Assembly: GCA_947505255.1 (NCBI GenBank)
Contig: CANNKP010000006.1
Location: forward strand, 1 to 40,551
DNA length: 40,551 bases
Reading direction: 5' to 3'
DNA from: Flavobacteriales bacterium
GTDB lineage: Bacteria; Bacteroidota; Bacteroidia; Flavobacteriales_D; Crocinitomicaceae
Below are positions 421 through 2,807 of the stretch, in pieces (the first letter of the stretch is position 1; the number at the start of each line of letters is the position of its first letter). The notes under the pieces were generated by a model. The model was not told the DNA's origin and did not search any database. It was given only the letters and a program-made list of their open reading frames with translations. Both the position numbers and the translations under genes were made by a program.

Positions 421-1296
421 ATGGCAAGTTTAAAAGAAATACGTAATAGAATTACTTCAGTTGGTTCAACTATGCAAATCACTTCAGCAATGAAGATGGT
501 TTCTGCTGCAAAGTTGAAAAGAGCGCAGGATGCAATTGTAAAAATGCGCCCTTATTCTGAGAAATTGCAAGAAATTCTTGGTAATTTAAGTGCTACTCTT
601 GATCTATCAGAAAATGCTTTTTCTGAAGAAAGAGAAATTAAAAACGTATTAATTATTGGGATTACTTCTAACCGTGGTTTGTGTGGGGGATTTAACAACA
701 ATATTATTAAACACGTAAATCATTTAGTGAACGAAGAATTTAAAGGAGCAAATTCACATGTAATTTGTCTTGGTAAGAAAATTAAAGACGCATATAAAAG
801 ATCTGATTCCTATTATATCAATGATGTGATTGCTCCAGTAGAGGATATCTTTAATCAGTTGACGTTTGACAATAGTTCAATCATCGCTGTTGATGCAATG
901 AATCGGTTTACATCTAAAGAATTTGATAAAGTAATAGTTGTTTATAATAAGTTTGTCAATGCAGCAACTCAAATTGTAACAACAGAACAATTATTACCAA
1001 TTGTTTCAAAAGTTACAGAGGATACTGTATCAAATGGAGATTATATTTTTGAGCCATCAAAAGAGGAAATAGTACTTGATTTAATTCCTAAATCGTTGAA
1101 AGTACAATTATTTAAAGGATTATTAGATTCAAATGCTTCTGAACATGGAGCTCGAATGACAGCTATGCACAAAGCAACTGATAACGCACAAGAAATGCAA
1201 AAAGCGCTTAAATTGAGTTATAATAAAGCGCGTCAAGCAGCAATTACAAACGAAATTTTAGAAATCGTTGGTGGTGCAGAAGCATTGAATTCATAA
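421..1296 (+). CDS. atpG: ATP synthase F1 subunit gamma
   Basis: Full-length 291-residue gamma subunit, the central stalk that rotates inside alpha3beta3 and couples proton flow to ATP synthesis at the cytoplasmic membrane. The N-terminal helix MASLKEIRNRITSVGSTMQI and the C-terminal helix ending ITNEILEIVGGAEAL are the two conserved coiled-coil strands of the family; the GITSNRGLCGGFN segment near residue 80-92 is the family signature. The ATG at 421 directly follows an aaagg tract. It is the second gene of an atpA-atpG pair. A strong terminator follows at once and neither atpD nor atpC comes next, in line with the split ATP synthase operon known in Bacteroidota, where atpDC lies elsewhere. 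Confidence 0.97.
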   Translation: MASLKEIRNRITSVGSTMQITSAMKMVSAAKLKRAQDAIVKMRPYSEKLQEILGNLSATLDLSENAFSEEREIKNVLIIGITSNRGLCGGFNNNIIKHVNHLVNEEFKGANSHVICLGKKIKDAYKRSDSYYINDVIAPVEDIFNQLTFDNSSIIAVDAMNRFTSKEFDKVIVVYNKFVNAATQIVTTEQLLPIVSKVTEDTVSNGDYIFEPSKEEIVLDLIPKSLKVQLFKGLLDSNASEHGARMTAMHKATDNAQEMQKALKLSYNKARQAAITNEILEIVGGAEALNS

Positions 1297-1350: not shown

Positions 1351-1377
1351 ATTTCCCCCTTTGGAAGGCAGCGCTCC

Positions 1378-1409
1378 CTGCTCGAACTGACAGTTAATGT
1401 ATCGAGAAC
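1378..1409. repeat. Modular palindromic repeat, copy R1 (upstream of GIY-YIG gene)
   Basis: Two modules recur across 1378-2046. Module a is gttctcgatacg and module b is ctactcgaactgacg; a' and b' denote their reverse complements. R1 carries a b-variant ctgctcgaactgaca (1378-1392) and an a'-variant tgtatcgagaac (1398-1409). It ends 40 bp before the GIY-YIG start codon, so the nuclease gene has copies on both sides. Confidence 0.85.
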
Positions 1410-1449
1410 ATGTTTTTTACTTATCTTCAAGTAAATCTAAATTATCACA

Positions 1450-1782
1450 ATGAAACTAATGTATGTTTACATACTCAAATGCAGCGATGGGACCTTTTAC
1501 ACAGGAGTAACAAATAATCTAAATCGTAGATTCAAAGAACACGAATCAGCACTTCATGAAAATTCATATTCTGCTCGTAGGCTTCCATTAGAATTAGTTT
1601 ATTATACTGAGATCTATGGTCCTTTAACTGCTATTAAAAAGGAAAAACAAATTAAAAAATGGGCACAAGCCAAGAAACTTGCTTTAATAGAAGGAAGGTA
1701 TGAGGATTTACCAAATTTAGCGAAAAAGAAGCGTGTTCTCGATACGTCCGCTAAGCTCCCTACTCGAACTGACGCTTCTTAG
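1450..1782 (+). CDS. Small GIY-YIG domain nuclease-like protein with repeat-encoded tail
   Basis: A 110-residue protein with a stand-alone GIY-YIG domain (UPF0213/YhbQ-like). VYILKC at 6-11 is the GIY strand and YTG at 18-20 the YIG strand. LNRR at 24-27 holds the catalytic-type Arg, H31 follows, and the Glu of KKEKQIKKW (about residue 65) fits the metal-binding Glu. Members of this superfamily cut DNA; the targets of these tiny versions are poorly known. An alternative ATG at 1459 gives MYVYILKC. Residues 96-110 are encoded entirely by repeat modules a and b, and the TAG stop at 1780-1782 lies in the first 51-bp tandem unit. Copies of the repeat lie on both sides of the gene, which suggests that gene and repeat move or are maintained together. 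Activity is inferred from motifs. Confidence 0.85.
   Translation: MKLMYVYILKCSDGTFYTGVTNNLNRRFKEHESALHENSYSARRLPLELVYYTEIYGPLTAIKKEKQIKKWAQAKKLALIEGRYEDLPNLAKKKRVLDTSAKLPTRTDAS
1735..1774. repeat. Modular palindromic repeat, copy R2 (inside GIY-YIG 3' end)
   Basis: Module a gttctcgatacg is exact at 1735-1746 and module b ctactcgaactgacg is exact at 1760-1774, with a 13-bp spacer. This copy is translated as the last 15 residues of the GIY-YIG protein. Confidence 0.9.
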
Positions 1783-1856
1783 AACTCGATTGAGTGAGCA
1801 GTTGCGCTCCCTACTCGAACTGACGCTTCTTTGAACTCGATTGAGTGAAATGTTGC
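1755..1856. repeat. 51-bp tandem duplication carrying module b
   Basis: Units 1755-1805 and 1806-1856 are both 51 bp long and differ at only four positions (47/51 by eye). Each starts gctccctactcgaactgacg, continues into a degenerate a-like word around gaactcgattgag, and ends gttgc. The first unit contains the GIY-YIG stop codon; one of the four differences removes that stop triplet from the second unit. Confidence 0.88.
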
Positions 1857-1865
1857 TGCACCCGC

Positions 1866-1900
1866 TGTCAGTTCGAGTAGGCGATAGCCGTATCGAGAAC
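1866..1900. repeat. Modular palindromic repeat, copy R3 (inverted)
   Basis: Module b' variant tgtcagttcgagtag at 1866-1880 and module a' cgtatcgagaac at 1889-1900, spacer 8 bp. This is R2 in reverse orientation, so R2 and R3 can pair with each other over the intervening tandem duplication. Confidence 0.88.
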
Positions 1901-1959
1901 ACAGCGGTCTTATTAAAATTAGTTTTCCTTCCCGAAATAGAGGTGATTCCTATGATTTG

Positions 1960-2060
1960 TTTTGTTTACGCGTCAGTTCGAGTAGACCACCTTGTTCTCG
2001 ATACGGGCAGAGCCCTACTCGAACTGACGGTGGACGTATCGAGAACTAGCGTAAACAAAA
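1960..2060. repeat. Compound palindrome R4 with four modules inside a 12-bp inverted repeat
   Basis: Order b' (1971-1985), a (1994-2005), b (2015-2029), a' (2035-2046). Both b'/b (15 bp) and a/a' (12 bp) are perfect inverted pairs, interleaved rather than nested. The block is bracketed by ttttgtttacgc at 1960-1971 and its exact complement at 2049-2060. The right-hand arm is the last coding stretch of the minus-strand hydrolase gene, whose TAG stop (2046-2048) touches the a' module. The block sits between convergent genes and could also stop or protect transcripts from both sides. Confidence 0.88.
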
Positions 2061-2807
2061 ACCCAAAACCGCATCAACAAATGCCTCAGGAGCCTCAGCA
2101 TGTACCCAATGACCAGCATTTTTAATTGTTACAATCTCAGAATCCGGAAATTGGTCCTCAAGTTGTTCGATATCTTCATCAAGAATGTAATTTGAAAGTT
2201 CACCGCGAATGAATAGGGTAGGAAGCATAACTTCTTTTTCTGGAAGTGCCGATAAGACATTCTCCATTTCTCGCTCTAGAACGCTTAAATTCATTCTCCA
2301 AGCCAATTGACCTTTCCCTTTCCAATATAAATTCTTTAAAAGAAATTGACGAACACCATCGGAGTCTATAAATAGCTTTAAAATGTCTTCTGCTTCACTG
2401 CGAAGTTTGATTTTATTCAAATCAATTGCATGCATTCCGGCAAGGATATGTTGGTGGTGCATTGGGTATGCTTTAACACCAATATCTACAACAATTAATT
2501 TCTCTAAATATATTTTATGTTTTTGTGCAAAAAGCATAGCTACTTTCCCTCCCATGGAATGGCCTATTAAGAGAATGTTTTTCAAGTTGTGATCATCACA
2601 TAATTCTTTTAGATCTTCAACCATTAAATCATAGGAAAATTCATCACTCCAATCTGAATGACCGTGATTGCGCAAATCAACAAGAATCACACGATAGTAT
2701 TCTGCGAATTTCTTGGCATGTGTTTGCCAATTGTCAGAAAAGCCAAACAAGCCATGGAGAATAATCATTGGTTGACCAGCGCCAAGTTCACGGAAATGTA
2801 AATTCAT
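2046..2807 (-). CDS. Alpha/beta hydrolase (YbfF-like esterase family)
   Basis: 253 residues, the usual length of small alpha/beta-hydrolase esterases. The oxyanion loop is HGLFG at 18-22, the nucleophile elbow GHSMGG at 82-87 with Ser84, and the catalytic His is in GHW at 232-234 near the C terminus. DLRNHGHSDW at 44-53 is the conserved strand-4 loop. There is no signal peptide, so it should act in the cytoplasm on acyl esters; the substrate cannot be told from sequence. It is convergent with the GIY-YIG gene. The last codons lie in one arm of a 12-bp inverted repeat and the stop codon abuts palindrome module a', so the 3' end may have been reshaped by a repeat insertion. Confidence 0.9.
   Translation of the reverse strand: MNLHFRELGAGQPMIILHGLFGFSDNWQTHAKKFAEYYRVILVDLRNHGHSDWSDEFSYDLMVEDLKELCDDHNLKNILLIGHSMGGKVAMLFAQKHKIYLEKLIVVDIGVKAYPMHHQHILAGMHAIDLNKIKLRSEAEDILKLFIDSDGVRQFLLKNLYWKGKGQLAWRMNLSVLEREMENVLSALPEKEVMLPTLFIRGELSNYILDEDIEQLEDQFPDSEIVTIKNAGHWVHAEAPEAFVDAVLGFCLR

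Follow-up and report, generated by a model that had tools for sequence, protein, structure and literature searches.

Hairpin repeat units accompany small GIY-YIG nuclease genes in Flavobacteriales and resemble REP systems

Small GIY-YIG nuclease genes of Flavobacteriales are accompanied by copies of a hairpin-forming repeat unit, and this partnership is general in the GIY-YIG loci of the order that we compared. One such locus lies in the window (the whole stretch of 40,551 nucleotides analysed here), where the gene and its repeat set sit between an atpG-like gene and a hydrolase-like gene. We think it likely that they form a REP-like system, in which the small GIY-YIG protein would be a structure- and sequence-specific nuclease of the surrounding unit, folded as a single strand.

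Results

The original prediction had placed two short modules, a and b, in both orientations around a gene for a 110-residue GIY-YIG protein. The gene is confirmed (Table 1), and the clustering of the modules at 1378-2046 is real, found where it had been described and far above chance in shuffle controls. Module a (GTTCTCGATACG, at most two mismatches) matches seven times in the window, with 1.06 matches expected by chance and no more than four in each of 100 shuffles; five of the matches are at the locus, at 1735-1746 and 1994-2005 on the plus strand and at 1398-1409, 1889-1900 and 2035-2046 on the minus strand. Module b (CTACTCGAACTGACG, at most three mismatches) has six matches in the window, starting at 1378, 1760, 1811, 1866, 1971 and 2015, with 0.38 expected by chance and at most two in shuffles. 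All six matches of b lie at the locus. The exact sequence GTTCTCGATAC is found six times in the genome assembly of the window, five times at the locus and once elsewhere, where it reads by eye as coding sequence.

Table 1. Features of the GIY-YIG locus and its neighbours, in positions of the window.
Feature	Positions	Strand	Remarks
ATP synthase gamma subunit gene, neighbour	421-1296	+	borders the empty site of congeners on the left
Partial unit, module b then a'	1378-1409		by eye, against 2015-2046 and locus L007
GIY-YIG nuclease gene, 110 aa (P0001)	1450-1782	+	PF01541, E 1.4e-15
Complete unit, GTCAG-TTC-GAGT..TATCGA-GAA-C	1735-1773	-	overlaps the 3' end of the gene
51-bp tandem duplication (1755-1805/1806-1856)	1755-1856	+	bears a second copy of module b
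Complete unit	1867-1900	+	
Outer unit of nest	1972-2046	+	loop filled by the unit at 1994-2028
Inner unit of nest	1994-2028	-	stem GGGC/GCCC
Alpha/beta-hydrolase-like gene, neighbour	2046-2807	-	named by eye; borders the empty site on the right

The original prediction had described a and b as two modules. We reject them as separate modules: each forms one end of a single hairpin unit, whose middle is a variable stem. The varying order of modules, which had suggested building blocks, is explained by units that sit within the loops of other units. In the window the outer unit of such a nest is bordered by the inverted arms TTTGTTTACG and CGTAAACAAA, and the partial unit at the left end of the locus resembles the right half of such a nest. 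Module b at 1811-1825 is a lone half inside the tandem duplication, of which the sister locus L007 has more copies than the window. DNA folding energies of the window units are mixed, with z of -3.25 for the nest and of -1.73 and +0.87 for two others.

The protein P0001 is a bare GIY-YIG fold in which Pfam recognizes the GIY-YIG domain alone, and its AlphaFold2 model has a mean pLDDT of 83.7 with a low-scoring tail. Its core spans residues 1-96; residues ~96-110 are encoded by the flanking unit, the last ~15 codons of the reading frame lying within the repeat, and the proteins of relatives stop near residue 96. Y7, Y17, G19, R27, H31 and E65 are invariant in an alignment of 48 sequences. The closest solved relatives belong to UPF0213, the group of B. 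subtilis YazA: by sequence, 1zg2 (BH0048, E 6.4e-17) and 1ywl (EF2693, E 5.1e-13) match best, and fold comparison again places them nearest, 1zg2 at the top, at TM-scores of only about 0.5-0.6. In tblastn, the window protein is 41% identical over 76 aa to a GIY-YIG protein of N. gonorrhoeae and 32.5% identical to YazA.

To describe the unit across relatives we used 108 loci, namely the best 80 of 122 relatives from named genomes and 28 further loci from the order, the latter left from 30 fetched after dropping L099, which occupies the contig position of L007, and L101, which is the window locus itself. Both sets consist of best scorers that are related to each other, and are not an even sample. 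The units follow the plan GTCNN-XYZ-GAGT-(variable stem-loop)-TAYCGA-X'Y'Z', of which we count 526 in 99 of the 108 loci, with a pattern shaped on the same loci. The two foot triplets, XYZ and X'Y'Z', are complementary in 481 of the 526 units, compared with a mean of 393 and a maximum of 405 in 2000 shuffles; with one row per locus and type, 115 of 154 are complementary (shuffles: mean 72, maximum 87). The TTC/GAA type makes up 440 of the 526, and other types are ATC/GAT, GTC/GAC, CTC/GAG, CCT/AGG, AGC/GCT, ATT/AAT and TCT/AGA; the ACT/AGG type (8 units) departs from strict pairing. At the fourth foot pair, the 442 TTC units have C:G in 164 cases, G:C in 198, C:C in 39, G:G in 2 and other combinations in 39. 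Since 45 of 91 loci hold both the C:G and the G:C state, shared ancestry alone is insufficient to explain this covariation. The foot is only 3 bp long in nine loci that have C:C at this position.

Next to the foot, the GA step is conserved in sequence, with a pyrimidine before and a purine after GA in 519 of 526 units. YGAR is the context expected of tandem sheared G.A pairs, and from it we infer that the conserved GA/GA step takes a non-Watson-Crick G.A geometry. The inner part is highly variable (355 distinct sequences among 442 units) and yet keeps its ability to pair: in units with an inner part longer than 24 nt, positions 1-7 of the inner stem are pairable, G.T allowed, in 0.87-0.98 of units, a fraction to be read beside the 0.80-0.90 that shifted registers also reach at three positions because the inner stems are T/A-rich. 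Inner regions also fold better than shuffles of their own letters (mean z -3.66); of 145 tested, from 150 sampled, a fraction of 0.69 fell at the 5% level or below it. The base preceding GTC is C in 368 and T in 138 units (506 of 526 together), and neighbouring units are inverted relative to each other in 239 of 301 cases. A TCGA/TCGA stem was rejected as the general structure, its letters being absent from the CCT, ACT and AGC families; in the TTC, ATC and GTC families this pairing is a local alternative, drawn by folding in some units.

The original prediction proposed to ask whether modules cluster around GIY-YIG genes in related Flavobacteriales, and an excess is what we find. A fully complementary unit lies within 500 bp of the GIY-YIG gene in 96 of the 108 loci, and in 74 on both sides. 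Near the gene, units have a density of 2.88 per kb, 13 times the 0.22 per kb of the remaining DNA of the loci, and the reversed pattern, used as a control, has no match at the 108 loci. Twelve of the 108 loci have no unit in precisely this form. Among GIY-YIG paralogues lacking the TTCTCGATA module, some carry units that keep the plan but differ in their letters, as in L117, where GTC/GAC and CCT/AGG units surround the paralogue, and several loci hold two triplet types. Unit orientation relative to the gene is mixed, with 59 units in the same and 32 in the opposite sense on the 5' side, and 36 and 56, respectively, on the 3' side.

The association extends to whole genomes. Among 399 Flavobacteriales genomes, 39 have the TTC unit: 15 of the 28 that have a close GIY-YIG gene and 24 of the 371 others (Fisher p 7e-10), where close means a GIY-YIG match of at least 113 bits, a cut chosen post hoc in the gap between 113.7 and 108.8 bits. 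Unit type is also clustered on the protein tree, with 16 changes against a shuffled mean of 23.7 and none of 200 shuffles as low, for nine labels (including "none") on a tree of 106 of the 108 loci. This tree, built on 97 columns, is poorly resolved, with 11 of its 102 branches starred; near-copies add to the clustering, and the GTC and CCT labels taken alone are unclustered.

Presence and absence of the locus can be compared at the junction between the hydrolase-like gene and the gene at 421-1296, which we take to be atpG. The genus has 25 hydrolase loci, of which 20 have a readable junction; gene and units are present there in two (the window and genome G133) and missing in 18, among them contig C204 of the window's own bin and genome G276, whose hydrolase is 92% identical. 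Target-site duplications are unreadable at these junctions because the flanks have diverged. The bin itself holds two versions of the atpG-hydrolase region, one with the GIY-YIG gene (C6) and one without (C204), with hydrolases 91% identical, perhaps from mixed strains or species.

Nests differ between related places as well. In L007, the right end of the locus holds just one unit, in place of the window's nest of a unit within the loop of a second. A near copy of the window nest (86% over 81 bp), with a different middle stem, lies beside an engB-like gene of genome G348, and G133 has a similar nested cluster at its engB-like junction, where the window and G276 have none. We count six distinct nests across the sequences compared. 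Together with the presence or absence of the gene-unit block, nesting suggests from sequence comparison that gene and units have moved, and their transposition would be one reading of this pattern.

Other junctions deserve mention. In L009, L010, L011, L012 and L021 (Maribacter/Muricauda-type), the GIY-YIG gene and its units precede a RecJ-like gene (by eye), and in most of these an OsmC-like gene lies ahead of the GIY-YIG gene, forming one conserved junction. Small GIY-YIG genes of another subfamily adjoin tRNA-like genes (by eye) in L140, L149, L144, L150 and, in the window's genome, L093 and L094; in L140, L149 and L094 a second, partial copy of the tRNA end is present on the far side, as if they were inserted at the tRNA end.

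Genomes with units and no close gene, which the original prediction had counted as evidence against it, do occur to some extent: among the 24 of 371 mentioned above, G023 has 18 copies, G060 17 and G282 11, and some of these multi-copy genomes are highly complete. Twenty lower-scoring GIY-YIG loci in 15 of the 24 genomes have no such unit nearby; they are a partial selection that leaves out UvrC-sized and some other matches and includes L145, truncated by a contig end. Three of the 20 have an internal stop, and these have no unit. To look for a decayed gene, 24 of the 95 GIY-YIG proteins were compared by tblastn (E 0.01) with 20 stretches around units, 19 from these genomes and one from G133; only the unit-encoded tail matched, and no gene remnant was found. 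It follows from these genomes and from the lack of remnants in them that units can outlive a close gene or exist without one. This may be persistence after loss of the enzyme, as in REPs, or another enzyme may serve the units. In the 19 gene-free stretches, 32 of 35 units lie mostly outside open reading frames of at least 110 aa, which cover 77% of the sequence. A unit-like sequence occurs at the same place inside one long reading frame in L197 (4382-4420, G348) and L199 (3187-3225, G133), and may be a chance resemblance or a unit captured in frame; these make up two of the three units placed inside reading frames.

In the genome of the window, the whole-unit pattern has one match, at this locus, and as the assembly (260 contigs) is 69.3% complete, copies may be missing from this count. 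The loose core GAGT..TATCGA is without excess there (65 matches vs 93 for the reversed control), and a scan for one form of short GAG..CGA hairpin found none at the GIY-YIG loci L092-L095 of the same genome. This genome has another dispersed hairpin repeat with a GAG..CGA core, of the GCACTGAGTTTATCGAAGTG type, at 11 places (at most two mismatches; G000:C98:8226-8467, C115, C95, C30, C32, C183, C241), and the five GIY-YIG matches of the genome are on contigs other than those of this repeat.

Several known kinds of element were considered and rejected. The three Rfam matches are weak and none reaches the gathering score, phage records gave zero matches at E 1e-5, and no PADLOC family matched at E 1; one viral contig matched the unit pattern.

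Discussion

Neighbouring units are inverted, the foot covaries and a presumed non-Watson-Crick step is conserved, all of which points to a folded single strand as the form that is recognized. We hypothesize that the unit folds into a foot helix whose base pairs, 3-4 or more, are specific to the lineage (TTC/GAA in the window), followed by a conserved tandem G.A step (5'-Y-GA-R-3' on both strands), a conserved GTAY bulge on the 3' side and the variable apical stem. The GIY-YIG protein would bind this fold and nick it at or beside the GA/GTAY junction, presumably when the strand is exposed in replication, repair or DNA uptake. Nicking, combined with strand joining, replication slippage, repair or recombination, could then spread units and nest them in one another, and this spread might occasionally carry the GIY-YIG gene along.

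The parallel with REP/RAYT drawn by the original prediction holds, in that a small nuclease gene is flanked by inverted, hairpin-forming repeats that are also dispersed. The two systems differ, as far as the cited part of PMC6006769 describes REP/RAYT, in the enzyme, GIY-YIG here and Y1 HuH there, in the foot, where our units lack the GTAG tag and have a GTC-type tag by construction of the pattern, and in the variable apical stem and ability to nest of the window-type unit. A second comparison is with CGTC-tagged REPs, which the cited portion of the survey by Di Nocera et al. 2013 (PMC3733652) describes as including TGTC and CCTC variants, as having an 8-9 bp stem behind the tag and a 4-5 nt loop, as forming inverted dimers that are mostly intergenic, and as apparently without a dedicated transposase. 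Window-type units share with this description the CGTC or TGTC at one end, the inverted pairs and the mostly intergenic position, and depart from it by the 3-4 bp foot, the GA step, the variable stem and the GIY-YIG gene. A literature search, judged mainly by titles, gave no title pairing GIY-YIG genes with REPs, and we do not claim that this pairing is unpublished.

Outside the order, we looked at 25 GIY-YIG loci from 48 records of a plasmid collection, picked for spread and not at random. Hairpins tagged like CGTC-REPs lie within about 320 bp of the gene in nine of the 25. Both flanks carry them in Azospirillum, two Sinorhizobium, Shinella, Rhizobium CIAT894, Neorhizobium and Neisseria gonorrhoeae, and a single flank does in R. 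tumorigenes and Photobacterium. Tagged hairpins also occur farther out, five in Neisseria, five in Photobacterium and three in S. meliloti, and for Photobacterium nearness means little because they are common there as well. Four more loci have repeats recognized by eye (Planktothrix, Spirosoma, Methylobacterium bullatum and Sphingomonas parapaucimobilis), and those of Planktothrix and Spirosoma read stem-GAG-loop-CGA-stem, the same core as in window-type units. The remaining 12, including B. subtilis YazA, have no convincing repeat, a single untagged-looking scan match being present in three of them. Unlike the window gene, YazA and the corresponding Radiobacillus gene belong to a conserved operon, and tagged hairpins are absent there.

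Small single-domain GIY-YIG proteins of Neisseria and their homologues, named Ssn, are reportedly site-specific nucleases of single-stranded DNA with a short repeated genomic target, and many homologues are said to have a target of their own. We take this family to be the likely parent of the system in the window. As in these accounts, P0001 is a small single-domain protein with conserved catalytic residues. Its gene is accompanied by repeats, which are putative targets. Unlike in the accounts of Ssn, the hairpin is longer, with a covarying foot, a GA step and a variable apical stem, the units pair inversely and nest, and gene and units are present or absent together. GIY-YIG homing endonucleases, by comparison, recognize a long, unique site within a conserved gene and carry an extra domain for DNA binding; we rejected this type for a protein consisting of the GIY-YIG domain alone with multi-copy hairpins in its flanks.

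The kinship with Ssn leads to the alternative that we weigh most seriously, and that we nevertheless consider rather unlikely: the enzyme would police single-stranded DNA, the units being target marks cut during uptake or recombination, as is reported for Ssn of Neisseria, and their spread a by-product of recombination. The shared superfamily, the CGTC-tagged hairpins around the Neisseria protein that resembles P0001 over 76 residues, and the persistence of units in genomes without a close gene are all consistent with it. However, the presence or absence of gene and units as a block, and the nesting, suggest movement of both.

Orphan genomes, and units that lie away from the gene and mostly outside reading frames, would also be expected if some other transposase moved the units, as common non-autonomous repeats or terminator hairpins, and the GIY-YIG gene were a passenger in intergenic space rich in repeats. 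We regard this as improbable in view of the enrichment of units at the gene and of units with the same plan and different letters around GIY-YIG paralogues. A role of the units at the RNA level, such as that of a leader or terminator of the GIY-YIG gene or of an RNA substrate of its product, is hardly to be believed: G.A steps are stable in RNA too and one window unit overlaps the 3' end of the gene, but orientation relative to the gene is mixed, Rfam gave no match at the gathering score and units also occur away from the gene.

Returning to a REP-like system with a GIY-YIG nuclease, a bolder version of it can be put forward only tentatively, as something that we would not yet bet on. Mobile hairpins of the REP type would then have GIY-YIG nucleases as a second class of driving enzyme, independent of the first; in Flavobacteriales, the unit, folded as a single strand and marked by a tandem G.A step and a foot specific to the lineage, would be nicked and copied, also into the loops of other units, and foot letters and protein would have changed together into several orthogonal pairs.

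REPs are widespread in bacteria, and the CGTC super-family is without a named enzyme in the cited portion of the 2013 survey (PMC3733652); a GIY-YIG driver, if true, would supply the enzyme for repeats listed there as having none. The defined pairing of gene and repeat, with a structural code that can be read, opens binding, cutting and mobility to direct tests, and the natural nuclease-hairpin pairs, of which there are several and which may be orthogonal, are candidate single-strand tools.
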